A DNA stretch of 25,554 nt from Novosphingobium sp. 9U. GTDB lineage: Bacteria; Pseudomonadota; Alphaproteobacteria; Sphingomonadales; Sphingomonadaceae. The first letter of the stretch is position 1; each line of letters begins with the position of its first letter. This document shows, one piece after another, positions 3,060 to 25,554 of the stretch. Below the pieces are notes generated by a model. That model made no database searches. It saw only the letters and a list, made by a program, of their open reading frames with translations, and had not been told where the DNA came from. The stretch lies in assembly GCF_902506425.1 (NCBI RefSeq), contig NZ_LR732520.1:1-25554 (forward strand). The letters run 5' to 3'. A program made the translations under genes and the position numbers.

Positions 3060-3099
3060 GTTCGTCTCCTGACCGGACTGCACTCTGGCGCGCTGGGCG

Positions 3100-3143
3100 C
3101 TTCTCGCCCGAGAAGACCGGCGAGAGACGAATCTCTCGCCGGT
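3100..3143. repeat. Two tandem hairpins at the left end of the module
   Basis: Hairpin one is CTTCTCG-CC-CGAGAAG (3100-3115). Hairpin two follows at once: ACCGGCGAGAG, loop ACGAAT, CTCTCGCCGGT (3116-3143), an 11-bp perfect stem. Copy 2 keeps both (23536-23551 and 23552-23579). Its first hairpin has changed centre but still pairs, and its second has one mismatch. There is no T-run, so a simple terminator is unlikely. An element end, a REP-like repeat or a protein-binding site are options. Confidence 0.7.
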
Positions 3144-3235
3144 AGTGGATGAGGATGTTCAGGAACTCTGAACTTCCTCGGGTCGCCTCTTCAAAGGCTT
3201 GCGCTTAGTACCAGGCCTTAACTGCTGTTGCTCGA

Positions 3236-3466
3236 TCAGCCACGCCTTCTGGTCCGCCGCGAGATCTGCGGAGCAGAGCTTGCGCGTCGCTGCGCATAAG
3301 CAATGGCCGACAGCGGCACACTGTCGTGAGCCGCCCAGAACTCGGCGAGGATGTCGCGCTGAGCAGGCGTGCTGGTGATGCGGTGTGCTAGTTCTTGATA
3401 GCCTGACCGAGGCTGCCGGTGCGAAGATCGTTTTACAGTTACCTTGCTCTCAACGGCCTCGGTCAT
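3236..3466 (-). CDS. Hypothetical protein of the repeated module (76 aa), copy 1
   Basis: The family is not recognised. ATG at 3466 follows GGGGGAG about ten bases upstream; the longer open frame upstream of it lacks support. The product (MTEAVESKVTVKRSSH...) is basic, with a middle block TPAQRDILAEFWAAHDSVPLSAIAYAQRR and an Arg-rich end. Copy 2 encodes a protein of equal length (23671-23901) with many amino-acid changes. Another frame over the C-terminal part also reads well (ADQKAWLIEQQQLRPGTKRK), and small indels between copies fall just beyond it, so the true product may have been longer before a frameshift. It is divergent from the helicase gene with 249 bp between them. Confidence 0.4.
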   Translation of the reverse strand: MTEAVESKVTVKRSSHRQPRSGYQELAHRITSTPAQRDILAEFWAAHDSVPLSAIAYAQRRASSAPQISRRTRRRG

Positions 3467-3715
3467 GCGCGGCAAACTCCCCCGTTTGCATTCTCTTGTC
3501 ACCAGGCCAACTCTTATGAGCTCTAGGTGCCGGTGCTGATCTGATTGGACGTTTAGCGCTTCTTGCCGCAACGCTACCAGCATGATTCTGCGTACGGTGA
3601 CGTACCCAGCGGCTGCCGCCATGACGGCATCTTACCGATCTCTCCGCGCGTGCCCGGGCGATTGCAGAGCTAATCGACAGAGCGTTGTCCAACCACATCG
3701 CGCACGTATATTCGG

Positions 3716-5914
3716 ATGATGGCCCTCGGACCTGCCAACCAGACACAGCAGACGGGCATGCGGCCCCATGGCGACCAGATCGCCGGCTCGGTTGAGCGCG
3801 TCACGTTCCACAACGCAGACACTGGCTTTTGCGTTCTTCGGCTGAAGGTCAGGGGCCAGCGCGATCTGGTCACGCTTATTGGTCATGCGGCGGCAATCGG
3901 CGCTGGCGAGTACGTCGAGGCTAGCGGCGTGTGGCTGAACGACCGAAATCACGGCCTCCAGTTCAAGGCCGAGAAGGTCGAGGCGACTGTGCCCACCACG
4001 CTCAAGGGTCTGGAGAAGTATCTCGGATCGGGGATGATCAAGGGTATCGGCCCGGTCTACGCGGCCAAGCTCGTGGCGGCATTCCAGCACGATGTGTTCG
4101 AAGTCATCGAGAAGGAGCCTGAACGCCTCCGAGAGGTGACCGGCATTGGTCCGGTGCGCGAGGCCAAGATCATCAAGGGCTGGAGCGATCAGCGCGCCAT
4201 CCGCGAGATCATCGTCTGGCTCTACAGCCATGGCGTCAGCTCGGCGCGGGCTGTGCGGATCTTCAAGACCTATGGCGAGCAGGCGATCGCCACGATCAAG
4301 GCAGATCCCTATCAACTCGCTCGAGACATCACGGGCATCGGGTTCAAGACCGCCGATGCGATCGCATCGAGCATCGGCTACGGCAAGGAGGATCCACGCC
4401 GTGTCCGCGCGGGTGTCAGCCATGCGCTGACCACTGCGATGGATGATGGCCATTGCGGACTCCCTCGGGACGATCTGCTCAGATCAGGCGCGAAACTCTT
4501 GGAAGTGCCCGAGCCATTGATCGAGCAAGCGCTGGAGGATGAACTTGCCTCCGGCGAGGTGATCTCCGGTGTGACGGAAGGGCGCGAGGTCATGTTCCTC
4601 GCCGGCCTATACCGCGCCGAGCAGTCGATAGCCGATCGGCTGCTCGGCTTGCGCGAAGGTCTGTTGCCATGGCCTGCCATAAACGCCGAGGTGGCGATCC
4701 CCTGGGTCGAGGGCAGAACGGGCTTGGAATTGTCACCAAGCCAGCAGGCAGCGATGCGCCTGGCGCTCTTGTCAAAGACTTGCGTGATTACCGGTGGCCC
4801 TGGTGTAGGCAAGACCACGCTGGTCAACTCGATCCTGAAGACCCTTGCTGCAAAGCGGGTCGTGATAGCTCTTGCCGCTCCGACTGGACGCGCCGCCAAG
4901 CGCCTGGCCGAGTCCAGCGGAATGGAAGCCATGACGCTGCACCGGCTGCTCGAAAGCGATCCAGGAGAGGGTGGCTTCAAGCGCAACGAGCATAACCCGC
5001 TCGAGTGTCAGCTGCTGGTCATCGATGAGGCCAGCATGATCGACGTGATGCTTATGCACGCGACCCTCAAGGCACTACCAGCTGGCGCCGCTTTGCTCCT
5101 GGTCGGAGACGTCGACCAGCTGCCGTCCGTCGGACCTGGGCAGGTTCTGAAGGACGTCATCGCGAGCGGTGCAGTGCCGGTTGTCCGGCTCACCGAGGTG
5201 TTCCGCCAGGCGGCTACAAGCCGCATCATCACCAACGCCCATCGGATCAATGCGGGAACCATGCCGGACCTGTCTGCGAGAGGCGAAGGGGACTTCTTCT
5301 ACGTACAGGCAGACGAGCCCGGGGAGGTTGCGGAGAAAGTGGTGGACCTTGTCTCCCGGCACATTCCCCGGCGCTTCGGCTTTGAAGCGGCCCGCGACAT
5401 CCAGGTTCTCTCGCCCATGCAGCGGGGCGGAGCAGGAGCGCGTGCGCTGAACACGCTGCTACAGCAGCGCATCAATCCGCCAACTGAAGAGTTCGTTGAG
5501 CGCTTTGGCCACCGATATGGACCGGGGGACAAGGTCATGCACATCGTCAACGATCGTGAACGAGACATCTACAACGGCGACCTGGGCGTCGTTACCCGGA
5601 TCGATCATCAAGAGGCTGAGCTAACGGCGATCTTCGGCGAGAACGAAGCCACCTTCGACTTTGGTGAGCTGGACGCTCTCCAGCTCGCCTACGCAACGAC
5701 GATCCACAAATCGCAAGGCTCGGAATACCCCGTCGTGGTTCTCCCGCTAACAATGCAGGCCTACACCATGCTCGGCCGCGAATTGATCTACACGGCCGTG
5801 ACCCGAGCGCGCAAACTCCTCGTCCTGGTCGGGTCGCGAAAAGCGCTCTCCATTGCGGTCAAACAGCGGCAGCCCCGGAGATGGTCACTCCTGCGAGAGC
5901 GGCTCTCCAAGTAG
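3716..5914 (+). CDS. recD2: RecD2-type ATP-dependent DNA helicase (SF1B)
   Basis: This 732-residue protein is a 5'-3' superfamily 1B helicase of the RecD2/TraA type, acting on DNA ends and forks without RecBC. Order: an OB-like N-terminal domain (to about 95), tandem helix-hairpin-helix repeats (GIGPVYAAKL, GIGPVREAKI, GIGFKTADAI; about 105-225), then two RecA-like motor domains. Visible motifs are Walker A GGPGVGKTT (360-368), APTGRAAKRL, Walker B IDEASM with D437-E438, [12 protein letters not shown], a TEVFRQ motif, and late motifs [13 protein letters not shown] and [11 protein letters not shown]. Length fits the family. The start is uncertain: ATG at 3716 and the next codon both lack a good ribosome site, and ATG at 3758 (MRPHGDQIAGSVERVTF) is equally possible. 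A second copy at 24151-25303 is broken, so this is the only copy in the window with Walker A. Confidence 0.95.
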   Translation: MMALGPANQTQQTGMRPHGDQIAGSVERVTFHNADTGFCVLRLKVRGQRDLVTLIGHAAAIGAGEYVEASGVWLNDRNHGLQFKAEKVEATVPTTLKGLEKYLGSGMIKGIGPVYAAKLVAAFQHDVFEVIEKEPERLREVTGIGPVREAKIIKGWSDQRAIREIIVWLYSHGVSSARAVRIFKTYGEQAIATIKADPYQLARDITGIGFKTADAIASSIGYGKEDPRRVRAGVSHALTTAMDDGHCGLPRDDLLRSGAKLLEVPEPLIEQALEDELASGEVISGVTEGREVMFLAGLYRAEQSIADRLLGLREGLLPWPAINAEVAIPWVEGRTGLELSPSQQAAMRLALLSKTCVITGGPGVGKTTLVNSILKTLAAKRVVIALAAPTGRAAKRLAESSGMEAMTLHRLLESDPGEGGFKRNEHNPLECQLLVIDEASMIDVMLMHATLKALPAGAALLLVGDVDQLPSVGPGQVLKDVIASGAVPVVRLTEVFRQAATSRIITNAHRINAGTMPDLSARGEGDFFYVQADEPGEVAEKVVDLVSRHIPRRFGFEAARDIQVLSPMQRGGAGARALNTLLQQRINPPTEEFVERFGHRYGPGDKVMHIVNDRERDIYNGDLGVVTRIDHQEAELTAIFGENEATFDFGELDALQLAYATTIHKSQGSEYPVVVLPLTMQAYTMLGRELIYTAVTRARKLLVLVGSRKALSIAVKQRQPRRWSLLRERLSK

Positions 5915-6057
5915 CAGCAGCGCTCTCGACGAGGTTTGTGGATCGTGCATTCGCGCCTTCAGGCGAGCAGGTAGCGGAGCAGCTAAATCGCATTGCGAAA
6001 ATCAGAACCTTGCTCCGCGTTCTTCGCACTTGCAGCATGACGGTTACGTCAGCATAG
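5915..6057 (+). pseudogene. Truncated IS110-like N-terminal reading frame after recD2, copy 1
   Basis: A frame open from ATG at 5881, overlapping the end of recD2, reads TRFVDRAFAPSGEQVAEQL and stops at TAG 6055-6057. In copy 2 the same frame runs without a stop into ETGPLSVWFFHALTAEGLP, a clear IS110 transposase block. I therefore take 5915-6037 as the damaged beginning of an IS110 gene that in this copy is cut at 6037. The piece lacks the usual start motif with its first acidic residue, and the residues just before ETG fit poorly, so small indels are likely. If this reading is wrong, the segment is simply the non-coding tail of the repeat. Confidence 0.4.
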
Positions 6058-6954: not shown

Positions 6955-7911
6955 ATGGAATCGTCCTACACGACTGAGTGGCTCACACTCCTGCATCAGC
7001 TGCCTGCTAAGCCGCCCTATTTACGGGTGAAAATCTGGCGCAAGCTTCAGGGTGTCGGTGCCTTGCCGATCAAGAATGCGGCGCATGTTCTCCCGCCCGG
7101 CGAGGAGAATGAAGCGGCCTTCCAGAACATCCTTGAAGACGTGGTCGCAAGCGGTGGAGAAGCGATCCTGCTTCGCGCTCGACTGCTGGCGGGCCAAACT
7201 GACCCTGAGCTTCGAGCACTGTTCGACGCGGCTCGCGACGCCGACTACGACGAAATCGCCCAAGCGGCGCGGCGCCTTTTGCATACCGGTCCTGCGAGTG
7301 GCTCCGACATAGCAAAGCTGCACAAGCGACTGGCAGAGGCCGAACGCTTTGACTTCTTCGGAGCGCATGGCCGACAGGCAGCCGAGGCGGCGCTCGCCGA
7401 AGTAGACCGACAACGGTACCGGCACCCTGACGTGAGCAGGCAAGAACCTGCTGCGGCACTGGAGCCGGCGACTCTGATCGGCCGTACCTGGGTCACCCGC
7501 CGCGGGGTTCATGTGGATCGTATCGCGTGCTCGTGGTTGATCCGTCGCTTTATCGATCCGCAGGCGAGGTTCCGTTTCGTTGACGCCAAGACGCATCAGC
7601 CGGCGCCGGGCGAGCTTCGCTTCGACATGTCGGATGCCGAGTTCACGCACGAGGGTGATCGCTGCAGCTTCGAGACACTCCTCTTGCACTCGGGTTTCGC
7701 CGAGGACCCGGGGCTCTCGGCGATCGCCGAGATCATCCACGAGCTCGACATCGCAGACGGCAAATTCGGCCGGCCAGAAACGGCGGGCGTGGGCGCGATG
7801 CTCTCCGGCGTATGTGCAGCCATCGACGATGACATCGAGCGTATCGCCCGCGCCAGCGACGCACTGGACCAGTTCTACGCCTTCTTCTCCGATCGAAAGT
7901 CGAGCCGATGA
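6955..7911 (+). CDS. chrB: ChrB, chromate-responsive regulator/resistance protein
   Basis: The 318-residue product matches ChrB, which senses chromate and controls the chr operon. The N-terminal part (RVKIWRKLQGVGALPIKNAAHVLPPG, about 20-50) is the winged-helix-like segment of the family. The C-terminal domain (about 155-310; WVTRRGVHVDRIACSWLIRRFIDP, then FDMSDAEFTHEGDRCSFETLL) is the chromate-resistance domain with conserved Arg, His and acidic residues. Length is typical. ATG at 6955 fits the family start, but no ribosome site is visible, so translation may be leaderless-like or weak. Its stop overlaps the chrA start by four bases (ATGA), indicating translational coupling. Half-site repeats upstream suggest autoregulation. 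Confidence 0.95.
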   Translation: MESSYTTEWLTLLHQLPAKPPYLRVKIWRKLQGVGALPIKNAAHVLPPGEENEAAFQNILEDVVASGGEAILLRARLLAGQTDPELRALFDAARDADYDEIAQAARRLLHTGPASGSDIAKLHKRLAEAERFDFFGAHGRQAAEAALAEVDRQRYRHPDVSRQEPAAALEPATLIGRTWVTRRGVHVDRIACSWLIRRFIDPQARFRFVDAKTHQPAPGELRFDMSDAEFTHEGDRCSFETLLLHSGFAEDPGLSAIAEIIHELDIADGKFGRPETAGVGAMLSGVCAAIDDDIERIARASDALDQFYAFFSDRKSSR

Positions 7912-9311
7912 GTGTCACCGCCGTTCATGCTACGACCGGGCCGGCAGCGGTGCCGGATCACGGGATCACGTTCAATGAGGCCGTTCGTGTCTGGGCGCGC
8001 GTGGCGGCGCTGTCGTTCGGCGGACCAGCGGGCCAGATCGCGGTCATGCACCGTATCCTGGTCGATGAGAAAAGGTGGATCGGAGAGGAGCGCTTCCTTC
8101 ACGCGCTCAACTATTGCATGCTGCTCCCGGGCCCCGAAGCTCAACAGCTGGCGGCATACATCGGCTGGCTGCTTCACAAGACCAAGGGAGGTCTGGTCGC
8201 AGGCGCGCTGTTCGTCCTGCCCGGTTTCCTGGCCATCCTCGCGCTGAGCTACATCTACGTTCTGCTCGGCCATGTGCCGCTCGTGGAGGGCTTGTTCTTC
8301 GGGTTGAAGGCGGCGGTTCTTGCGGTCGTGCTCCAGGCGGTCGTTCGGGTCGGCTCGCGCGCGCTTAAAAACAACGCCCTTCGCGCGATCGCGGCGGCGG
8401 CATTCGTCGCCATCTTCTTTCTCAACGCGCCGTTCCCGTTGATTGTGCTGCTTGCTGGCCTGGGCGGCTATATCGGCGGACGCGCTGGAGCAGCCGCGTT
8501 CAAAGGAGGCGCAGGCGGACATGGTCCCGCCGGAGGCGAGGTCGTGCACGACCGTGAGACCGCACTAGGCGAAGGTCTGCCCGACCACGCGAGACCCAAC
8601 CTATCCTGGTCGCTGAGGATCTCGGCTCTATTTCTGGTGCTTTGGCTTGCTCCGGTGGGGCTGTTGCTGGCCTTTGCGGGCCCGGACAGCGTGTTCACAC
8701 ATATCGCGACCTTCTTTAGCCAGATGGCGGTCGTTACCTTCGGCGGAGCCTACGCCGTGCTTGGCTACGTGGCACAGGAGGCGGTCGGCACATATCACTG
8801 GGTTTCGCCGGGCGAGATGCTGGACGGTTTGGGGCTTGCCGAGACCACTCCGGGCCCGTTGATCATGGTGACTCAGTTCGTCGGCTTCCTTGCTGCTTAT
8901 CGCCATGCTGGCGTAATGGACTCGCTCGTGGCGGCCACGCTGGGCGCGGTCCTCACGACCTGGGTGACGTTCATGCCCTGCTTCCTATGGATCTTCGCGG
9001 GAGGCCCGTTCATCGAGCGCATGCGCGGCAAAAGGGCAATTTCGGCAGCGCTTACTGCGATCACGGCGGCGGTGGTAGGGGTCATCCTCAATCTGGCGCT
9101 CTGGTTCGCGATCCACACGCTGTTCCGGAGCGTTCACGAGGTGCAGGTAGGCGGCGGAGGCTTCAGCGTGCCCGTGCTCACGAGCATCAACCTGCCTGCC
9201 CTTGCACTGGCGACCGGAGCGGCGGTCGCGGTGTTCCGCTTCAAGGTGGGGATGATCCGAGTCTTGTTCGCCTGCGCCGTTCTCGGCGCCGCTTACGTGC
9301 TCATGGCGTGA
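7908..9311 (+). CDS. chrA: ChrA chromate efflux transporter
   Basis: The 467-residue inner-membrane protein belongs to the long-chain CHR family, which exports chromate from the cytoplasm. It shows the two homologous halves: FGGPAGQIAVMHR with PGPEAQQLA in the first, and FGGAYAVLGYVAQEA with TTPGPLIMVTQFVGF in the second, with many hydrophobic segments between. A Gly/His-rich linker (GGAGGHGPAGGEVVHDR) separates the halves. Length is slightly above the usual 400-450. The ATG overlaps the chrB stop, so it is co-translated. Fourteen bases separate it from the superoxide dismutase gene. It is the central resistance determinant of the window. Confidence 0.97.
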   Translation: MSVTAVHATTGPAAVPDHGITFNEAVRVWARVAALSFGGPAGQIAVMHRILVDEKRWIGEERFLHALNYCMLLPGPEAQQLAAYIGWLLHKTKGGLVAGALFVLPGFLAILALSYIYVLLGHVPLVEGLFFGLKAAVLAVVLQAVVRVGSRALKNNALRAIAAAAFVAIFFLNAPFPLIVLLAGLGGYIGGRAGAAAFKGGAGGHGPAGGEVVHDRETALGEGLPDHARPNLSWSLRISALFLVLWLAPVGLLLAFAGPDSVFTHIATFFSQMAVVTFGGAYAVLGYVAQEAVGTYHWVSPGEMLDGLGLAETTPGPLIMVTQFVGFLAAYRHAGVMDSLVAATLGAVLTTWVTFMPCFLWIFAGGPFIERMRGKRAISAALTAITAAVVGVILNLALWFAIHTLFRSVHEVQVGGGGFSVPVLTSINLPALALATGAAVAVFRFKVGMIRVLFACAVLGAAYVLMA

Positions 9312-9325
9312 ATGGAGAAATCTCA

Positions 9326-10054
9326 ATGACGGACTTCACCCGGCGTTCTGCCGTTAAGGCATTTGGAGCAGGCGCGCTGGCGGTGGCGACCATCGACAGC
9401 GCAGCGGCAGCGGCCCCACAACCGGCGACGAGCCCCCCGGCATTCACGGGAAACTTCCAGCCCAAGCCTCTGAAATTCGACCCGGGGAAGCTTGATGGCC
9501 TATCCGAACGCCTGATCAAGTCTCACTGGGAGAACAACTATCAAGGCTCGGTCAAGACGCTCAACGCCGTGCGCACACGTCTCTCTGCCGCGCTCGCCGA
9601 CAAGGATGCGCCACCGGCGATCTATGGCGGGCTCAAGCGGGAGGAACTCCATCGCACCGGTTCGGTCGTGCTGCACGAGATCTACTTCGATGGCTTGGGT
9701 GGCAATGGCCAGGTCGCTGGATCGATCAAGGACGCGCTCGGAGCGGCTTTCGGATCGTACGCGACTTGGGAAGCTGAGTTCCGCCGCACCGGCATGTCGC
9801 TCGCTGGGGGATCTGGTTGGACGATCCTCACCTTCAACCAGCATACAGGCACATTGAGCAACCATTGGGCCTGGGATCACATGCATGGCGCCGCGGCCGG
9901 TCTGCCGCTGCTGGCGCTCGATATGTACGAGCATAGCTTCCACATGGACTACGGGACGCAAGCGGCCAAGTACATCGATGCCTGGTTTCGCAATGTAGAC
10001 TGGGAAGTCGTCGATCAACGGTATCGTCGCGCCATTGGCGCATCGCGCGCCTGA
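9326..10054 (+). CDS. chrC: Tat-exported Fe/Mn superoxide dismutase of the chr operon
   Basis: The 242-residue protein is of the Fe/Mn superoxide dismutase family; a related gene follows chrBA in some chr operons, where it is called chrC. ATG at 9326 has GGAG eight bases upstream and lies 14 bp after chrA. The N-terminus (TRRSAVKAFGAGALAVATI, ending SAAAAA) is a twin-arginine signal, so the enzyme should act in the periplasm. The four metal ligands are in place: H67, H117, D199 and H203. The second-sphere positions differ from classical SodB: the HH..Y pattern after the first ligand reads NNYQGS, so the gateway Tyr appears to be Ser. That may be normal for this subfamily but makes full dismutase activity uncertain. 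It probably counters superoxide made during chromate reduction. Confidence 0.9.
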   Translation: MTDFTRRSAVKAFGAGALAVATIDSAAAAAPQPATSPPAFTGNFQPKPLKFDPGKLDGLSERLIKSHWENNYQGSVKTLNAVRTRLSAALADKDAPPAIYGGLKREELHRTGSVVLHEIYFDGLGGNGQVAGSIKDALGAAFGSYATWEAEFRRTGMSLAGGSGWTILTFNQHTGTLSNHWAWDHMHGAAAGLPLLALDMYEHSFHMDYGTQAAKYIDAWFRNVDWEVVDQRYRRAIGASRA

Positions 10055-17305: not shown

Positions 17306-17396
17306 GTCGTTTGAACCCGCTCTCGGATCAGCTTGTGCCTTCTTTGTCCGCTACTGTCGATCCTTGGATATCCAAGTTGGGGACACAACGTGGATC

Positions 17397-17621
17397 GATT
17401 TTTAGGTTGAGCGTGCCGAGCCGCGTATCCAAGCTGCGGTCGCGGTAGCCATTGCGCCAGGTGCTGCGCTCGGCAGACGGCTCGTGGCGGCCGGCACCGA
17501 TAAGGCCATCGACATCGGCCTCCATGATGATCTGCAGCACGCTCTCTGCGAAACTACGCAGGGAATCGCCGTCTCCGGTCTTCGCCATCAGCTCGGCAAG
17601 CGGTAGTCTGTCGTCGGTCAT
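17397..17621 (-). pseudogene. IS256-family transposase, 5' remnant
   Basis: ATG at 17621 follows GGAG (GAGGAGTTTTTCCCG). The product MTDDRLPLAELMAKTGDGD...LIGAGRHEPSAERSTWRNGYRDRSLDTRLGTLNLKI is the N-terminus of an IS256-type (DDE) transposase. After residue 75 the resemblance ends abruptly near 17397, where the family continues with PKLR and its first catalytic Asp. None of the DDE triad is present, so the remnant is inactive. The frame stays open to 17328 in unrelated sequence. The breakpoint next to the truncated propeller gene suggests the element was involved in the rearrangement there. Confidence 0.85.
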
Positions 17622-17698
17622 CGGGAAAAACTCCTCGGGTGTTGGTGAAGCTCGACACTTCCACCTTAACCGATGAGCCCGGTGGCACCGAGCCGCCG

Positions 17699-17731
17699 AT
17701 GCCGGGGTGGGGCCTCGCCCCACCCCGGCAT
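17699..17731. repeat. 15-bp perfect hairpin upstream of the IS256 remnant
   Basis: ATGCCGGGGTGGGGC (17699-17713) and GCCCCACCCCGGCAT (17717-17731) pair perfectly around a three-base loop CTC. It lies 78 bp upstream of the transposase start, so it probably belongs to the IS256 end and may shield the transposase gene from outside transcription. The outer end of the element was not identified but is probably near 17760. Confidence 0.75.
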
Positions 17732-17946
17732 ACACCGTCATCTACACCCGGGAAATTACACCACGACCGCGGACGCCAGCCAATCGGTCGGCATGCTGCT
17801 GACGCGACTACCCGAGTTCTGCACCTTAACCGAAACCGCGAGAGGCGGCAGGTCGAGTACGTCGACTACATCGCAGCGGCAATGACGCTACCGCGTGCCG
17901 TTCCGTCTACGGACCTCGACCGATTAGCGTAGCAAGCAGGGCCACC

Positions 17947-17989: not shown

Positions 17990-20419
17990 ATGGACTATGC
18001 TGCAAGCCGGCTGACGGGCCCGCGCCCGCCATCAAGGCTTTGCCGATTCGTCAACTATTTTAGTGCAAGCTCCTTTTGTCCTTCACTATGCAGTTGCCAA
18101 CCCGTGTTCCCTTGGAAAGCCAGCAAGTTCGGTAAGCGTTACAGGTCACTTGCGATAGTGGTGTGTCTCGGAGCGCTTTTTGGCGTTTTAGGCGCAGGGG
18201 ATCCACTCGAAGATGCTTTTCACGTCGCGCGGAATAAGCTTCGGATGCACCAAGCGAGCGGCCAGGTAGTCCTCATCGGCGTGGATGAGCGTAGTGTTGC
18301 CGAAGTAGGCACCGCGACTTGGTCGGAAAGAGATCTCACGCGACTTCTGTCGGCTGTACGGAAGGTCAATCCCCGGCGCGTACATTTCGATCTAGATCCG
18401 ACAAATTCGGCATCACTCCCGCAGGATGGCTTACTGGCGAAAGAAATGCGCCGACTGGGTTCCCGTCTGTCTTTGTCTACGCGTTTTGCCATCGACCCGG
18501 CGACAGGTCAGCGCAGCGAAAGTAGCCCATTGACGAACCTTGCGCGCGACGCGCCTCTTGTCAACGTCAACACCAAGATCGGGTGGGACAACGTGGTGCG
18601 GCAACAACCGTTCGCGGTGCGATCCCACGGACGTGCCGTCTTGTCGCTGCCCGCCTATCTCGCAGGATCAACTCGGTTCGATACAGAAGCCGTGTTCCCA
18701 ATTGATTACGCGATTGATCTCAGAAGTATTCCTGTTCTGAGTGCCAGCGACGTCATCAACGGGCGCTTTAAGGCGGCTCAGCTAGCAGGCAAAGACGTGG
18801 TAGTCTCAAGGACCGATGTTGACGCGAGGCGATATAATGCTCCCGGGTACTCGGTCGTGCCCGCTATTTTGATCCAGATCGTAGCGGCAGAAACGCTTAT
18901 CTCTGGCTCTCCTATAGACCTGGGCTGGGTCGCAGCCTTCATATTAGCCGCTGTGCTCGCGTATGGCGTACTACAGAGCTCGACTCGAGCCTCGGCGGGT
19001 GTAACGACAGCTTTAGGCGTGGTCGCGCTGCTGACGATTCCACTGTGGCTGGAGAGCGTTCAGGTCCACCTCGTCGTCATCCCGTCAATTGTAGTCTTGC
19101 TTGGGGCAGGCTGCGCGCGCGCATGGGCAGAGTGGCGAAATCATCTGCACCGGCGAGGCAATACAAACCCGGTCTCCGGGTTGCCGAACCTGCTGGCGCT
19201 TCTAGAAATCGGTACGGTGGCGCAAGGCATACTTGTCTCGCTCAGGATTCAGAACCGCTCCCAGATACGCGCTTCCCTTGAAGACCAGCGCGAAAAGGAG
19301 CTGGTAGAGCAGGTTGTGAACAGGCTTCGCTTTGGCGCCAATGGTTCTCCCGTCTACCAAGCGGACGACGGCACCTTTGTATGGATGAGCCAAGCTCCAG
19401 AGGGCGAGTTACAGCAGCAACTGGACGGTCTTTATGCGCTGTTCCGAAGCCCTGCCGTTGTCGGCGCTAGACTGCTGGATGTACAAGTCGCCTTCGGTTA
19501 TGATGTAGACGAAGGGCGGCCACTCTCGCAGCGCATTGCCGGCACGCTCGCCGCCGCCGATGAAGCAGCCCGCGAGGGGCTGCGTTGGAAGTGTTTCGAT
19601 CCTGCTTCGCTTGACGATGCAGAGTGGACCCTGTCCCTGCTGAGCCGTCTTGATCAAGCGCTTGAGGCAGGGCAACTCTGGGTGGCATACCAACCCAAAC
19701 TTGATTGCATTACTGGTGTAACGGTTGGTGCTGAAGCGTTGGTTCGGTGGACGCACCCCGAAAAAGGCAACATCTTCCCTGACCAGTTTATTGGAGCCGC
19801 GGAGCGAAGTGGCCGTATAGCGGAGCTTACCAGGTTTGTCCTCGACGATGCTGTGAGCACGGCATCCCATATCAACGGCTTAGGACGTAAGTTCTCTGTC
19901 GCTGTGAACCTTTCAGCTACGCTTCTTGCGGGTGATGCCATCATTTCGATGGTGCGGGATACCATACACAAGTATCGGTTCGCTCCTGATCTTCTGGTTC
20001 TTGAGATAACGGAAACCAGCACTCTGCGAAGTGGAGCCGAAGCAGAAGAAGTGCTGCGTGACCTAAGTCAAATGGGTGTGCAGCTTTCTATCGACGACTA
20101 TGGTACCGGTTTTTCGACGCTAGAGTATTTGAAGCGAGTTCCCGCGTCCGAGATCAAGATCGACAGAACTTTCATATCTATGCTTCACCGATCCCAGAGT
20201 GATCGGATCATGGTGAATTCTACGATCCAGTTGGCCCACTCGTTGGGCCGTAAAGTCGTAGCGGAGGGCGTTGAGAACGCCGAAATCTTGGATGAACTGA
20301 TTTGGATGGGGTGTGACATGGTGCAGGGATACCACACCGCGCGACCGATGCCGAAATGGGCGTTGCACAGCTTCCTAGAATTAAACGGAACTGATAACCG
20401 GTCCGAGGCGTTGGGTTAG
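17990..20419 (+). CDS. CHASE2-(degenerate GGDEF)-EAL cyclic-di-GMP phosphodiesterase
   Basis: This predicted inner-membrane enzyme cleaves cyclic-di-GMP. An N-terminal membrane helix (about 52-68) leads to a periplasmic CHASE2 sensor (about 70-300, with VVLIGVDERS and HFDL), then hydrophobic segments (about 311-374), a degenerate GGDEF domain (about 390-530, with ADDGTF where GGDEF should be, so no cyclase activity) and an EAL domain (about 548-795). The EAL catalytic set is complete: E582-A-L, N640, E672, D702-D703 in DDYGTGF, K723, E759 and Q779. The first 40 residues of the longest frame (from ATG 17990) look unnatural. GTG at 18104 (VFPWKASKFGKR) may be the real start; neither has a clear ribosome site. 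It opposes the two cyclases in this window. Confidence 0.92.
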   Translation: MDYAASRLTGPRPPSRLCRFVNYFSASSFCPSLCSCQPVFPWKASKFGKRYRSLAIVVCLGALFGVLGAGDPLEDAFHVARNKLRMHQASGQVVLIGVDERSVAEVGTATWSERDLTRLLSAVRKVNPRRVHFDLDPTNSASLPQDGLLAKEMRRLGSRLSLSTRFAIDPATGQRSESSPLTNLARDAPLVNVNTKIGWDNVVRQQPFAVRSHGRAVLSLPAYLAGSTRFDTEAVFPIDYAIDLRSIPVLSASDVINGRFKAAQLAGKDVVVSRTDVDARRYNAPGYSVVPAILIQIVAAETLISGSPIDLGWVAAFILAAVLAYGVLQSSTRASAGVTTALGVVALLTIPLWLESVQVHLVVIPSIVVLLGAGCARAWAEWRNHLHRRGNTNPVSGLPNLLALLEIGTVAQGILVSLRIQNRSQIRASLEDQREKELVEQVVNRLRFGANGSPVYQADDGTFVWMSQAPEGELQQQLDGLYALFRSPAVVGARLLDVQVAFGYDVDEGRPLSQRIAGTLAAADEAAREGLRWKCFDPASLDDAEWTLSLLSRLDQALEAGQLWVAYQPKLDCITGVTVGAEALVRWTHPEKGNIFPDQFIGAAERSGRIAELTRFVLDDAVSTASHINGLGRKFSVAVNLSATLLAGDAIISMVRDTIHKYRFAPDLLVLEITETSTLRSGAEAEEVLRDLSQMGVQLSIDDYGTGFSTLEYLKRVPASEIKIDRTFISMLHRSQSDRIMVNSTIQLAHSLGRKVVAEGVENAEILDELIWMGCDMVQGYHTARPMPKWALHSFLELNGTDNRSEALG

Positions 20420-20446
20420 CTTTTTTCTAAATTTTTCAGTTAAGGC

Positions 20447-20475
20447 TTGTTAACGATCTTACGGCGGGTTATATC
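20447..20475 (+). promoter_or_regulatory. Promoter of the short leader transcript
   Basis: TTGTTA (20447-20452) and TATATC (20470-20475) are separated by exactly 17 bp, a good housekeeping-type promoter. The predicted start is near 20482, giving a transcript of about 126 nt to the terminator at 20607. Confidence 0.6.
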
Positions 20476-20516
20476 GATCTGCGACGCATGGGGGCGTCGG
20501 CAGAGCGGAGACTTCT

Positions 20517-20555
20517 ATGATCTGGCGTTGGCTTTATGGCGAAGGTTGGGGTTGA
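20517..20555 (+). CDS. Tryptophan-rich leader peptide (12 aa), attenuator-like
   Basis: ATG at 20517 has GGAG seven bases upstream and encodes MIWRWLYGEGWG followed by TGA: three Trp in twelve residues. It lies inside a short transcript unit with its own promoter and terminator. The codons for GEG (GGCGAAGG, 20538-20545) can pair with CCTCGCC (20584-20590) in the terminator's left arm, a possible antiterminator. A second hairpin, GGTTGG with CCAACC (20544-20549, 20557-20562), encloses the last Trp codon. These are the parts of a ribosome-stalling tryptophan attenuator, but no trp gene follows; the next gene is a LuxR-type regulator. It could be an orphan attenuator, a regulatory RNA like the rhizobial trp leader RNA, or chance. 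Confidence 0.5.
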   Translation: MIWRWLYGEGWG

Positions 20556-20579
20556 TCCAACCTGTTGGTAGTCAATCAG

Positions 20580-20607
20580 AAAGCCTCGCCACGGCGAGGC
20601 TTTTTTT
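20580..20607 (+). terminator. Intrinsic terminator of the leader transcript
   Basis: AAAGCCTCGC (20580-20589), loop CACG, GCGAGGCTTT (20594-20603), then four more T. The seven G-C-rich pairs with A-T extension and the T-run make a strong rightward terminator, 25 bp after the leader peptide stop and 38 bp before the LuxR-type gene. Confidence 0.92.
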
Positions 20608-20645: not shown

Positions 20646-20930
20646 GTGCCGAAACGGGCATATCCACGTATGGAAGCCGTCGCCCGCATTGGTAATGTCA
20701 GGCAGAACAAGTACAGGTCGTCGTCAGCGCTAGTATTGCTTGATCTCACCCCTCGCGAGCGCGAGGTGCTCGGCCTCATCTGCGAAGGCTTCGACGACAA
20801 GGCCATTGCGAAACGCCTCGCACTTTCCGGAAACACGGTGCGCAATCATGTCGCCGGCATCTACGGGAAGATTGGTGTCAACCGCCGCGCCGCCGCCATC
20901 GCCTGGGCTCGCGAAAGGAAGCTCACCTAG
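20646..20930 (+). CDS. Stand-alone LuxR-type HTH regulator (94 aa)
   Basis: The protein contains only the LuxR/FixJ DNA-binding domain: LTPREREVLGLICEGFDDKAIAKRLALSGNTVRNHVAGIYGKIGVNRR (about 34-82), a complete four-helix HTH with the usual recognition helix. There is no receiver or autoinducer domain. The longest frame starts at GTG 20646; ATG at 20670 is possible. Neither has an obvious ribosome site, and a strong terminator lies just upstream. Small LuxR-type proteins of this kind act as transcription factors or as partners of other regulators. Expression might depend on readthrough of the upstream terminator. Confidence 0.82.
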   Translation: MPKRAYPRMEAVARIGNVRQNKYRSSSALVLLDLTPREREVLGLICEGFDDKAIAKRLALSGNTVRNHVAGIYGKIGVNRRAAAIAWARERKLT

Positions 20931-20972
20931 ATAAGGCAAGCAGATCGGCCAGGCACGAGTTGGCCCCCAGAT

Positions 20973-20984
20973 CGTTAGCTAACG
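20973..20984. promoter_or_regulatory. 12-bp palindrome upstream of the hemerythrin gene
   Basis: CGTTAGCTAACG is perfectly self-complementary and lies 39 bp before the hemerythrin ATG. It is a candidate operator; no regulator can be assigned. Confidence 0.3.
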
Positions 20985-21022
20985 GAGAATTGCAGAAAAC
21001 CGTCTAACGCGAGGACAGATCC

Positions 21023-21550
21023 ATGACCGAAGCTAAGACTGCTACGAAGGCCAAGAGCAAGAGCGGCTCGAAAACGGCGCGCAAGACGCAACGCGCGGCC
21101 GCAAAGCCCGCCGATGCGATCAAGCTGCTCAAGGACGATCACCGCGAAGTGCAGAAGTGGTTCAAGGACTACGACAAGCTGGAAGACGATACCGCAAAGC
21201 AGGAACTTGCCGACCGCATCTGCCTGGCTCTGACTATACACACGCAGATTGAGGAGGAGATCTATTATCCCGCCGCGCGCGAGGCGATCGACGACGACGA
21301 TCTACTTGATGAGGCCGAGGTCGAGCATGCCAGTGCCAAGCAGCTTATCGCCGAGATTCAGTCGATGAAGGCGGGCGATCGACTGTTTGACGCAAAGGTC
21401 ACCGTGCTGGGCGAGTACGTGAACCACCATGTCGAGGAGGAAGAATCCGAGATGTTCCCCGAAAGTCGGGACAGCGATCTTGATCTGAAAGCGCTCGGTG
21501 TCCAGCTGGCGGAGCGAAAGGCCGAGCTGATGGCAGAGGCGCAGAAGTAA
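21023..21550 (+). CDS. Hemerythrin HHE-domain protein
   Basis: This 175-residue soluble protein has a Lys/Ala-rich N-terminal extension (about 1-30) and a four-helix hemerythrin domain. Putative di-iron ligands are the His in KDDHREV, His and Glu in HTQIEEEIYYP, the His in VEHASAK, and His and Glu in NHHVEEEESEMFP. The family binds O2, NO or peroxide, or takes part in iron and stress responses. ATG at 21023 is preceded by an AGGA-type site (GAGGACAGATCC). It is separate from the LuxR-type gene (92 bp) and followed by a GC-rich hairpin. A stress role fits the metal and oxidative-stress setting, but the ligand is unknown. Confidence 0.92.
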   Translation: MTEAKTATKAKSKSGSKTARKTQRAAAKPADAIKLLKDDHREVQKWFKDYDKLEDDTAKQELADRICLALTIHTQIEEEIYYPAAREAIDDDDLLDEAEVEHASAKQLIAEIQSMKAGDRLFDAKVTVLGEYVNHHVEEEESEMFPESRDSDLDLKALGVQLAERKAELMAEAQK

Positions 21551-21962
21551 TCGCAGCTGGCGCACGGCCGGCGATCATTGCCTCCATGCGCCGGCCCAGC
21601 TCGCGCCTCGGGGCCCAAGGCGTTTGATGAGTCAAATGTAAGTGGAAGAACATCCCATCCTACGCTCCTTCCTCCAGAGGTCCTGGTAGAGCGGGCAAGC
21701 GCTTCCTGCTTCCCAGTATTACCGCCAACCACGGGAATTCAGCAGCTCATGTTTGGACCTGCGCCGCCCGACTTGAAAATCCTAACGGCAGCTTCGGCTT
21801 ATCGGACTTGCCTTCGACTATGATGAACGCGAGCGACCGGAGTGGGGAAGCCGTATCAAAGGGCTGAATGGCGGTAACTGGCTCCGTGTAGCCGCGCTAA
21901 TAACGGCTGCACGACGGCACTGGGATCGCGCGGCAGGTCTAAATCGGTCCGAAAGCTGCAAC
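21551..21962. other. 412-bp intergenic region with a GC-rich hairpin
   Basis: No gene is seen. Just after the hemerythrin stop, GGCCGGCG (21566-21573) and CGCCGGCC (21589-21596) pair perfectly around a 15-base loop, which may end transcription from the left although there is no T-run. The rest of the stretch, up to the end of the convergent glycosyltransferase gene, shows no motif I can support. Confidence 0.45.
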
Positions 21963-23478: not shown

Positions 23479-23670
23479 CACCGGTCGGCAAGGCCGCCTG
23501 TCGCCCGCGTTCAAGTGGCGGTGACAAGCGGACGGCTTCTCGCGAGAGAAGACCGGCGAGAGACGAACCTCTCCCCGGTAGTGCATGAGGATGTCCAGGA
23601 AATCTGCACTTCCTCCGGGTCGCCTCTTCAAGGCTTGGCTTAATACCAGGCCTTAACTGCTGTTGCTCGA

Positions 23671-23901
23671 TCAGCCACGCCTTCTGGTTCGCCGCGAGAT
23701 TTGCGGGGCAGAGCTTGCGCGTCGTTGCGCATGAGCGATGGCCGACAGCGGCACACTGTCGTGAGCCGCCCAGAACTCGGCGAGGATGTCGCGCTGATCA
23801 GACGTGCTGGTGAGGTGGTGTGCTAGTTCTTGATAGCCTGACCGAGGCTGTTGGTGCGAAGAACGGTTTACAGTTATCTTGCTCTCAACGACCTCGGTCA
23901 T
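23671..23901 (-). CDS. Hypothetical protein of the repeated module (76 aa), copy 2
   Basis: This is the counterpart of the ORF at 3236-3466, with the same start context, length and Arg-rich end. Changes include A to V, V to I, K to N, and HRITSTPAQ to HHLTSTSDQ. Many differences alter amino acids, unlike in the helicase gene, so selection on this protein looks weak in at least one copy. The function is unknown, and it may be decaying or not expressed. Confidence 0.3.
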   Translation of the reverse strand: MTEVVESKITVNRSSHQQPRSGYQELAHHLTSTSDQRDILAEFWAAHDSVPLSAIAHAQRRASSAPQISRRTRRRG

Positions 23902-24150
23902 GCGTGGCAAACTCCCCCGTTTGCATTCTCTTGTCACCAGGGCAACTCTTATGAGCTTGAGGCGCGGGTGCTAATCCGATTGGACGTTTAGCGCTTCTTG
24001 CCGCGACGCTACCAGCATGATTTTGCGTACGGTGACGTACCCAGCGGCTGCCGCCATGATGGCGTCTTACCGATCTCTCCGCGCGTGCCCGCGCGATTAA
24101 GACGCTAATTCACAGTGCGTTGTCCAACCACATCGCGCACGTAGGTTCGG

Positions 24151-25303
24151 ATGATGGCCTTCGGACCTGCCGACCAGACACAGCAGACGGGCATGCGGCC
24201 CCATGGCGACCAGATCGCTGGCTCGGTTGAGCGCGTCACGTTCCACAACGCCGATACAGGCTTTTGCGTTCTGCGGCTGAAAGTCAGGGGCCAGCGCGAT
24301 CTCGTGACGCTTATTGGCCATGACGCTGCACCGGCTGCTCGAAAGCGATCCAGGAGAGGGTGGCTTCAAGCGCAACGAGCATAACCCGCTCGAGTGTCAG
24401 CTGCTGGTCATTGATGAGGCCAGCATGATCGACGTGATGCTTATGCACGCGACCCTTAAGGCACTACCAGCTGGCGCCGCTTTGCTCCTGATTGGAGACG
24501 TCGACCAGCTGCCGTCCGTCGGCCTTGGGCAGGTTTTAAAGGATGTAATCGCAAGCGGCGCGGTGCCGGTTGTCCGGCTCACCGAGGTTTTCCGCCAGGC
24601 GGCGACAAGCCGCATCATCACCAACGCCCATCGGATCAATGCGGGGTCGATGCCGGACCTGTCTGCGAGGGGCGAAGGGGACTTCTTCTACGTACAGGCG
24701 GACGAGCCCCGGGAGGTCGCGGAGAAAGTGGTGGACCTTGTCTCCCGGCACATTCCCCGGCGCTTCGGCTTCGAAGCGGCGCGCGACATCCAGGTTCTCT
24801 CGCCCATGCAGCGGGGCGGAGCAGGAGCGCGTGCGCTGAACACGCTGCTACAGCAGCGCATCAATCCGCCAACTGAAGAGTTCGTCGAGCGCTTTGGCCG
24901 CCGATATGGACCGGGGGACAAGGTCATGCACATCGTCAACGATCGTGAGCGAGACATCTACAACGGCGACCTGGGCGTCGTTACCCGGATCGATCATCAA
25001 GAGGCTGAGCTAACGGCGATCTTCGGCGAGAACGAAGCCACCTTCGACTTTGGTGAGCTGGACGCTCTCCAGCTCGCCTACGCAACGACGATCCACAAAT
25101 CGCAAGGCTCGGAATACCCCGTCGTGGTTCTCCCGCTAACAATGCAGGCCTACACCATGCTCGGCCGCGAATTGATCTACACGGCCGTGACCCGAGCGCG
25201 CAAACTCCTCGTCCTGGTCGGGTCGCGAAAAGCGCTCTCCATTGCGGTCAAACAGCGGCAGCCCCGGAGATGGTCACTCCTGCGAGAGCGGCTCTCCAAG
25301 TAG
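24151..25303 (+). pseudogene. RecD2-type helicase, copy 2, broken by internal deletion
   Basis: The first 56 codons match the intact gene. At CATG (24319-24322) the sequence jumps to the codons around residue 405 of copy 1. The missing 1,046 bp is not a multiple of three, so the N-terminal frame ends after 77 residues in foreign sequence. The C-terminal frame (from 24314, 329 residues) keeps Walker [24 protein letters not shown] and TAVTRA. Walker A and the helix-hairpin-helix repeats are gone, so no ATPase activity is expected. The C-terminal piece could be made as a free protein, but no ribosome site supports this. Most base differences from copy 1 are silent, so the deletion seems recent. 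Confidence 0.93.
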
Positions 25304-25554
25304 CAGCAGCGCTCTCGACGAGGTTTGTGGATCGTGCATTCGCGCCTTCAGGCGAGCAGGTAGCGGAGCAGCTAAATCGCATTGCGAAAATCAGAACCTT
25401 GCTCCGCGTTCTTCGCACTTGCAGCAGGTTCGAGACCGGTCCGCTGTCAGTCTGGTTCTTTCATGCCCTTACGGCCGAAGGCTTGCCAGCGATCTGCATC
25501 GATGCCCGTCACGCCAAGGCTGCGCTCGACATGGCAGCCAACAAGACGGACGCA
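25304..25554 (+). CDS. IS110-family transposase, partial (cut by window edge)
   Basis: From 25429 to the right edge the frame reads FETGPLSVWFFHALTAEGLPAICIDARHAKAALDMAANKTDA, an unmistakable IS110 (DEDD) transposase segment just before the second acidic motif. The frame is open leftward through the repeat tail (FVDRAFAPSGEQVAEQL) to ATG 25270, inside the end of helicase copy 2. Part or all of 25304-25428 may therefore be the transposase N-terminus, though it lacks the expected first Asp motif and fits poorly just before ETG. The gene may be 5'-damaged. It differs in subgroup from the IS110 gene at the left edge. Confidence 0.8.

Follow-up and report, generated by a model that had tools for sequence, protein, structure and literature searches.

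The window analysed here, the whole 25,554-nucleotide stretch of Novosphingobium sp. 9U contig NZ_LR732520.1, carries on its forward strand a gene for a CHASE2-EAL protein (17990..20419), a predicted membrane c-di-GMP phosphodiesterase (Pfam EAL 5e-68, CHASE2 1.3e-14). The true start of this gene is uncertain, and homology with Novosphingobium chloroacetimidivorans runs from position 18033. Directly 3' of it, on the same strand, lies a compact unit (20439-20607), and no terminator belonging to the CHASE2-EAL gene itself was visible by eye in the gap between the two. The unit begins with a CtrA-like GTTAA-N6-TTAAC box (20439..20454), which overlaps the -35 region of the promoter-like hexamers TTGTTA-N17-TATATC (20447..20475; -35 at 20447-20452, -10 at 20470-20475). 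These are followed by a hairpin at the 5' end of the predicted transcript (20478..20504), a Shine-Dalgarno (SD) sequence GGAG (20507..20510) and an ORF of 12 codons, MIWRWLYGEGWG, which extends from the ATG at 20517 to the TGA at 20555 and has TGG as codons 3, 5 and 11. A GGTTGG/CCAACC hairpin (20544..20562) spans Trp-11 and the stop codon, and the unit is closed by an intrinsic terminator, a hairpin with a T run (approximately 20578..20607; -19.2 kcal/mol). The RNA is predicted to be about 130 nt long, and the folding z-score of the unit is -2.69. The hexamers, the GGAG-led ORF with its three Trp codons, the hairpin over the last of these codons and the strong terminator had all been pointed out in an initial annotation of the locus, and each of them is present in the sequence. 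The window unit exceeds the chance expectation for a Trp-rich ORF combined with an SD and a terminator: a 422-kb sample of the genome, read on both strands, contained 39 short ORFs with three Trp inside 12 codons, four of which had an SD and only one, that of the window, both an SD and a terminator.

The gene that follows the unit had been regarded in the initial annotation as a lone LuxR-type regulator. It is actually the 3' portion of a PAS-LuxR gene that has been truncated (20737..20930, forward strand, within an ORF at 20646-20930) and lies outside the unit. Residues 30-94 of this ORF share 95% identity with the end of a 489-aa PAS-LuxR protein encoded elsewhere in the genome, and window positions 20737-21828, comprising the LuxR 3' fragment and a hemerythrin gene, are a 95.7% copy of positions 7733-8822 of contig C10. 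The window also contains a direct duplication (3099-3895 and 4928-6037 versus 23535-24330 and 24317-25426; 92% and 98%) surrounding a recD2-like helicase gene. The middle part is missing from the second copy, and the window is thus framed by a long repeat with a partial deletion. At 6955-10054, a ChrB-like chromate-resistance gene, a gene whose translation resembles a transporter on visual inspection and a Fe/Mn superoxide dismutase domain follow one another.

The sole close relative of the unit was found in N. chloroacetimidivorans (79% DNA identity, MIWRWLYGEAWG). When the window was compared with 20 kb of the relative's contig, the homologous block covered positions 18033-20606, that is, the CHASE2-EAL gene (72% identity) and the unit, and ended at the terminator. 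In the box region (20438-20458) 20 of 21 bases were kept, whereas the adjoining positions 20459-20485 were 52% identical and the -10 hexamer of the relative reads TATTGC. The GGAG and the 5' hairpin were retained; in the hairpin, one change is compensatory and two are one-sided, as counted between two sequences only. The ORF kept 36 of its 39 bases, including all three Trp codons, and the two synonymous and one nonsynonymous changes are too few to judge selection from this pair. Downstream of the stop codon 12 of 21 columns were identical, in the terminator 25 of 31, and the hairpin over Trp-11 and the stop had a different form, GGGG/CCCC. The next long ORF in the relative lies on the opposite strand and is transposase-like by eye. 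Among the matches listed from 195 genomes of the genus, the only close copy of the window enzyme was again that of N. chloroacetimidivorans (G037, 76%), the next copies reaching at most 37%.

The DNA search with the unit matched 3 of the 195 genus genomes, its own genome counted, and the third match (G157) was 31 bases long and, by eye, within a coding sequence. There was no match to the unit in a search of plasmid DNA and none in a pattern scan of viral sequences. A degenerate peptide pattern recovered N. chloroacetimidivorans and two further stretches from a genome-contig collection. A family-wide pattern search gave places in 4 of 298 genomes, and the three other than that of the unit lie inside long open frames. 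A covariance model built from the two units was used to scan the 195 genus genomes and 397 genomes of the family, which we take to be the Sphingomonadaceae of GTDB. The two best scores were 160 and 151 bits, followed by 38 bits or less. The covariance search in sphingomonads that the initial annotation had recommended provided no further strong match, but its weak matches revealed relatives by position. Several of them had a W-rich short ORF before a terminator, and the five weak matches taken for closer inspection were each located immediately 3' of an EAL gene belonging to the same group. The view that the unit is restricted to two species was overturned by these hits, in which the relatives could be recognized from position and peptide. 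Hits below 40 bits were mostly terminators (29 loci read, the two known units among them), and the model is unfit as a classifier of the family; as loci L105-L109 were found through it, they do not count as independent support for the presence of the peptide. For the subsequent loci, we read the downstream DNA of CHASE2-EAL genes picked on the enzyme alone.

Judged from sequence and position, the ORF of the window is a member of a family of predicted micropeptide genes that, in many genera of Sphingomonadaceae, stand immediately 3' of the CHASE2-EAL genes of one particular group. The peptides are 8-35 aa long and have a core like FW-x-W-L-[FL]-GGGW. The core of the window peptide has the pattern W-x-W-L-[FY]-G-x-G-W, and its IWRWLYGEGW can be read as a pared-down version of FWSWLFGGGW. 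Other examples are MYSWNWGSLGR, MNKDIWGGGWWGGGI, MKKVNAGRGFWSWLCGGGWTNAGSNG and MSFWEWFENCFGGR. Given this recurrence of the W-rich core and the three Trp codons kept in the close relative, the lack of Trp-codon conservation that the initial annotation had named as a refutation of its proposal was not observed. The second CHASE2-EAL gene of the genome carries a peptide of its own, MIWHWGWSSFE. On plasmid NZ_CP142674.1 of Qipengyuania sp. HL-TH1, the ORF MWRWWNELFGSR is located between WP_320179827.1 and WP_320179828.1 and has no listed gene, the gene table of this plasmid being known to be incomplete. The family sequences are very variable over their 8-35 residues, so that a single function is not assured.

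The traits proposed for the family, all of which the window unit has, are a TTAAC box, an SD, an ORF of 7-40 codons in which aromatic residues cluster, and a terminator. The criteria for a candidate ORF were fixed beforehand as an ATG or GTG start, 7-40 codons, an SD tetramer, a distance of no more than 450 nt from the stop of the EAL gene, and a W that has a second W, an F or a Y at most four residues away. Under the final criteria, such an ORF was found at 25 of the first 28 genus loci, L013 and L014 having an SD-led ORF with one Trp and L040 an ORF without an aromatic residue. Of 40 further genus loci, 32 likewise had one and 8 failed, and the order search contributed 19 loci, 18 of them with such an ORF, after 11 duplicates had been dropped; the genome G055 appears in both of these sets. 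A held-out set consisted of 40 loci from other genera among the matches listed, which were picked, non-randomly, before the downstream DNA was read. Here a candidate was detected in 26 of 40 loci, the doubtful L197 and L221 included, and a candidate with a terminator in 22 of 40. We judged 24 of the 26 candidates, from 13 genus codes, to be sound, so the shortfall of 16 loci is made up of 14 without a candidate and the two doubtful ones. In the antisense control of the same size, the numbers were 3/40 and, with a terminator, 0/40; at 450-850 nt further downstream they were 0/40 and 0/40. Behind long frames of this genome (open frames of at least 350 codons, some of them surely non-genes), candidates were present in 5 of 281 cases and in 0 of 281 with a terminator. 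Taken together, the sets comprise 132 locus records, of which 106 had a candidate ORF, a tally that leaves out the 11 duplicates as well as L197 and L221.

The substitution pattern shows purifying selection on the codons of the peptide ORFs. The pooled pN/pS was 0.50 (P = 0.004) in 15 equal-length pairs, the window pair included, which is only a moderate value; with the reading frame shifted, it was 0.90 and 1.17. These pairs were picked by EAL-gene similarity alone, with the peptide disregarded, and 9 of 24 pairs were left out because their lengths differ. Another value, 0.38, comes from pairs picked by peptide identity and is therefore biased, 0.50 being the fairer estimate.

In addition, the presence of the peptide followed the phylogeny of the enzyme. 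Presence and absence required 2 changes on a tree of 87 CHASE2-EAL proteins (shuffle mean 14.9, with 0 of 500 shuffles as low), the absences being fifteen in one clade and a single loss at L266. The tree was made by a quick method with a midpoint root, includes near-copies and has some weak deep branches, and its labels were assigned by hand: four loci (L013, L014, L040 and L176) were scored as present although they do not satisfy the automatic criteria, and L237 and L266, which have doubtful candidates, were scored as absent. L248, L249, L264 and L265 gave no protein, the duplicate L165 was dropped, and L267-L270 were left off because their downstream state was not read. The window enzyme clustered with copies from other genera (L105, L106, L108 and L109; support 99) and not with the second CHASE2-EAL of its own genome. 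The enzyme gene and the peptide were likely transferred as a unit, an old duplication with loss being a conceivable alternative origin. A fragment of a Mutator-family transposase (17328-17741) lies just upstream of the CHASE2-EAL gene and may be connected with how the pair came to this site. In Hyphomicrobiales, EAL genes matching the window CHASE2-EAL on Bosea and Rhizobium plasmids (L189, L190) follow FecR-domain genes. In a partial Mantel test over 62 loci, peptide distance correlated with EAL distance at r = 0.278 and with CHASE2 distance at 0.158; the EAL domain correlates at least as well as CHASE2, and no contact domain is thus singled out.

From shuffled sequences, a TTAAC/GTTAA box would be expected within 150 nt upstream of 19.7 of the 106 ORFs; it is present at 95. 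Of the 16 held-out loci that lack a sure ORF, one has the box in its first 150 nt. The exact arrangement TTAA-N6-TTAAC is found at 4 places in 4.6 Mb, one of which precedes a DUF1153 gene that we take to be SciP-like; sites spaced by N7 occur at six places in this genome. The CtrA motif has been published as TTAA-N7-TTAA (PMC9437464), and the CckA-ChpT-CtrA relay is reported to be conserved in Sphingomonadales (PMC2877005). The window unit resembles CtrA-controlled promoters in having a TTAAC palindrome at its -35 region; however, its spacer is N6 and the published one is N7. We infer that the unit may be controlled by CtrA through putative binding at the N6 palindrome.

On balance, we lean towards the explanation that the unit is the gene of a micropeptide that partners the upstream CHASE2-EAL protein, is controlled by CtrA and modulates the enzyme. 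Its own CtrA-like promoter would drive an RNA of about 130 nt with the 5' hairpin, the SD, the 12-codon ORF and the terminator, and the comparative data support the peptide as the probable conserved product. The peptide would most likely reside at the membrane surface by means of its aromatic residues, where it could modulate the activity or the localisation of the phosphodiesterase, an action suggested by the linkage of the two genes. If so, c-di-GMP breakdown would be tied to the CtrA programme. The function of EAL domains and the biology of CtrA, on which this mechanism draws, are established knowledge. The Trp codons would then be present because the peptide needs tryptophan and not for sensing it.

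The initial annotation had proposed instead that the unit couples the charging of tRNA-Trp to the LuxR regulator. In an orphan or decayed attenuator of this kind, stalling at the Trp codons would disable the terminator for LuxR or for a lost gene, and the three Trp codons, the hairpin on the last one and the terminator do conform to the anatomy of a leader. The antiterminator pairing that had been suggested, between GGCGAAGG (20538-20545) and CCTCGCC (20584-20590), can form with one bulge but is lost in N. chloroacetimidivorans. An alternative pairing of approximately 20523-20536 with the 5' arm of the terminator is available in both species (-17.4 in the window, with 10 of 500 shuffles as good; -13.5 in N. 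chloroacetimidivorans, with 45 of 500), and the family leans slightly to complementarity between the ORF and the terminator arm (median rank 0.29). However, this pairing sits on Trp codons 3 and 5, so that a stalled ribosome would mask it, and only 5 of 68 members reach a rank of 0.05 or better. Moreover, the number of Trp residues is inconstant, varying from 1 to 4 across 96 peptides whose W counts and composition are biased by the selection rule. In neither species does an intact gene on the same strand directly follow the unit, the LuxR fragment and the opposite-strand ORF being its neighbours, and no gene for Trp synthesis, transport or use was found after it in the window or in N. chloroacetimidivorans. 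The trpE gene of this genome, assigned from its Chorismate_bind domain and gene neighbours, is on a different contig and overlaps its upstream gene, which leaves no room for a leader. Rfam gave no match over the whole window at the gathering score, and the sub-threshold matches were mostly on the terminator. Attenuation of LuxR was rejected on account of the broken gene, the absence of a neighbour common to both species and the unconserved antiterminator, and a role of the unit as a Trp attenuator is very unlikely. The other suggestion of the initial annotation, a trans-acting RNA and peptide, fared better: a free-standing short transcript with a peptide in trans is near the result of the comparison, although not as a trp leader.

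Equally far-fetched is a chance ORF in the 3' end of the CHASE2-EAL transcript. The lack of a visible terminator ahead of the unit would agree with it, but the held-out test with its controls, the codon-level selection and the TTAAC box separating the gene from the ORF all argue against it. A small regulatory RNA that base-pairs by way of its hairpin-flanked transcript, the ORF being secondary, is unlikely as well. The size of the unit, the compensatory change in the 5' hairpin, the strong terminator and the folding z-score could be taken in its favour; however, the RNA is barely alignable across genera (at most 38 bits, mostly terminator), whereas the W-rich coding is kept under codon-level selection and the frame survives length changes around the core, e.g., in L184 and L186. 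We also regard it as unlikely, if a little less so, that the micropeptide is free-standing (membrane-active, a signal or toxin-like) and linked to CHASE2-EAL by shared control with no action on the enzyme. Its own box and terminator, the short aromatic peptides and a peptide variation not particularly tied to the CHASE2 domain are compatible with this, but it is less easily reconciled with the fact that the peptide is inherited almost strictly along with one section of the CHASE2-EAL tree. A more speculative and rather improbable possibility is that the short aromatic peptide of each strain is released and acts as a ligand of the extracytoplasmic CHASE2 sensor encoded next to it, forming a CtrA-switched Gram-negative pheromone circuit that would set c-di-GMP; the partial Mantel result does not favour this reading.

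Compared with databases, no Pfam or NCBIfam model matched any of the four members tested, and no PDB match was obtained for the one member tested. Among three members searched against PHROGs there was one weak match, to phrog_29326 (E = 0.016), a 36-position phage family of unknown function. In the open-access literature we found no paper on CHASE2-EAL in Sphingomonas, on CHASE2 with a small protein and c-di-GMP or on the core motif, none linking a microprotein to a c-di-GMP phosphodiesterase, and none treating Trp leader-peptide attenuation in Alphaproteobacteria and Novosphingobium together. The pairing of CHASE2-EAL with a micropeptide is thus undescribed in the databases and open-access papers searched; as only open-access papers were covered, the pair may still have been reported. 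We know of no description of the input of the CHASE2-EAL sensor enzyme. With the micropeptide as partner of the phosphodiesterase, an apparent orphan attenuator becomes part of a family of 8-35 codons, too short for usual gene calling and retained in many genera alongside a single group of predicted c-di-GMP phosphodiesterases. This names a small candidate partner for the sensor enzyme and points to a possible connection of CtrA with c-di-GMP. At the same time, it cautions that Trp-rich short ORFs ahead of terminators need not be attenuators.

Among known systems, trpL-type attenuators and the rhizobial rnTrpL/peTrpL, whose peptide was shown to act in trans, share with the unit a multi-Trp short ORF, a terminator and a short RNA (PMC7298713). 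Unlike them, the window unit is not upstream of trp genes, its antiterminator is unconserved, its Trp residues are non-consecutive and vary in number, and it is linked to CHASE2-EAL. Gram-positive leaderless peptide signals are very short hydrophobic peptides encoded beside the gene of their receptor, and the family likewise places a very short hydrophobic peptide next to a putative receptor gene. However, the host here is Gram-negative, and the predicted peptides show no preferential co-variation with the CHASE2 sensor domain. The genes of the small proteins KdpF, CydX, AcrZ and SgrT lie next to that of a membrane enzyme or transporter, on which the small protein acts. The family resembles them in that a tiny peptide gene is paired with the gene of a membrane protein. 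It differs in that its peptides, of 8-35 aa, are aromatic- and Gly-rich and in many cases below the length of a membrane span, that the gene has its own box and terminator, and that the partner is a predicted c-di-GMP phosphodiesterase.
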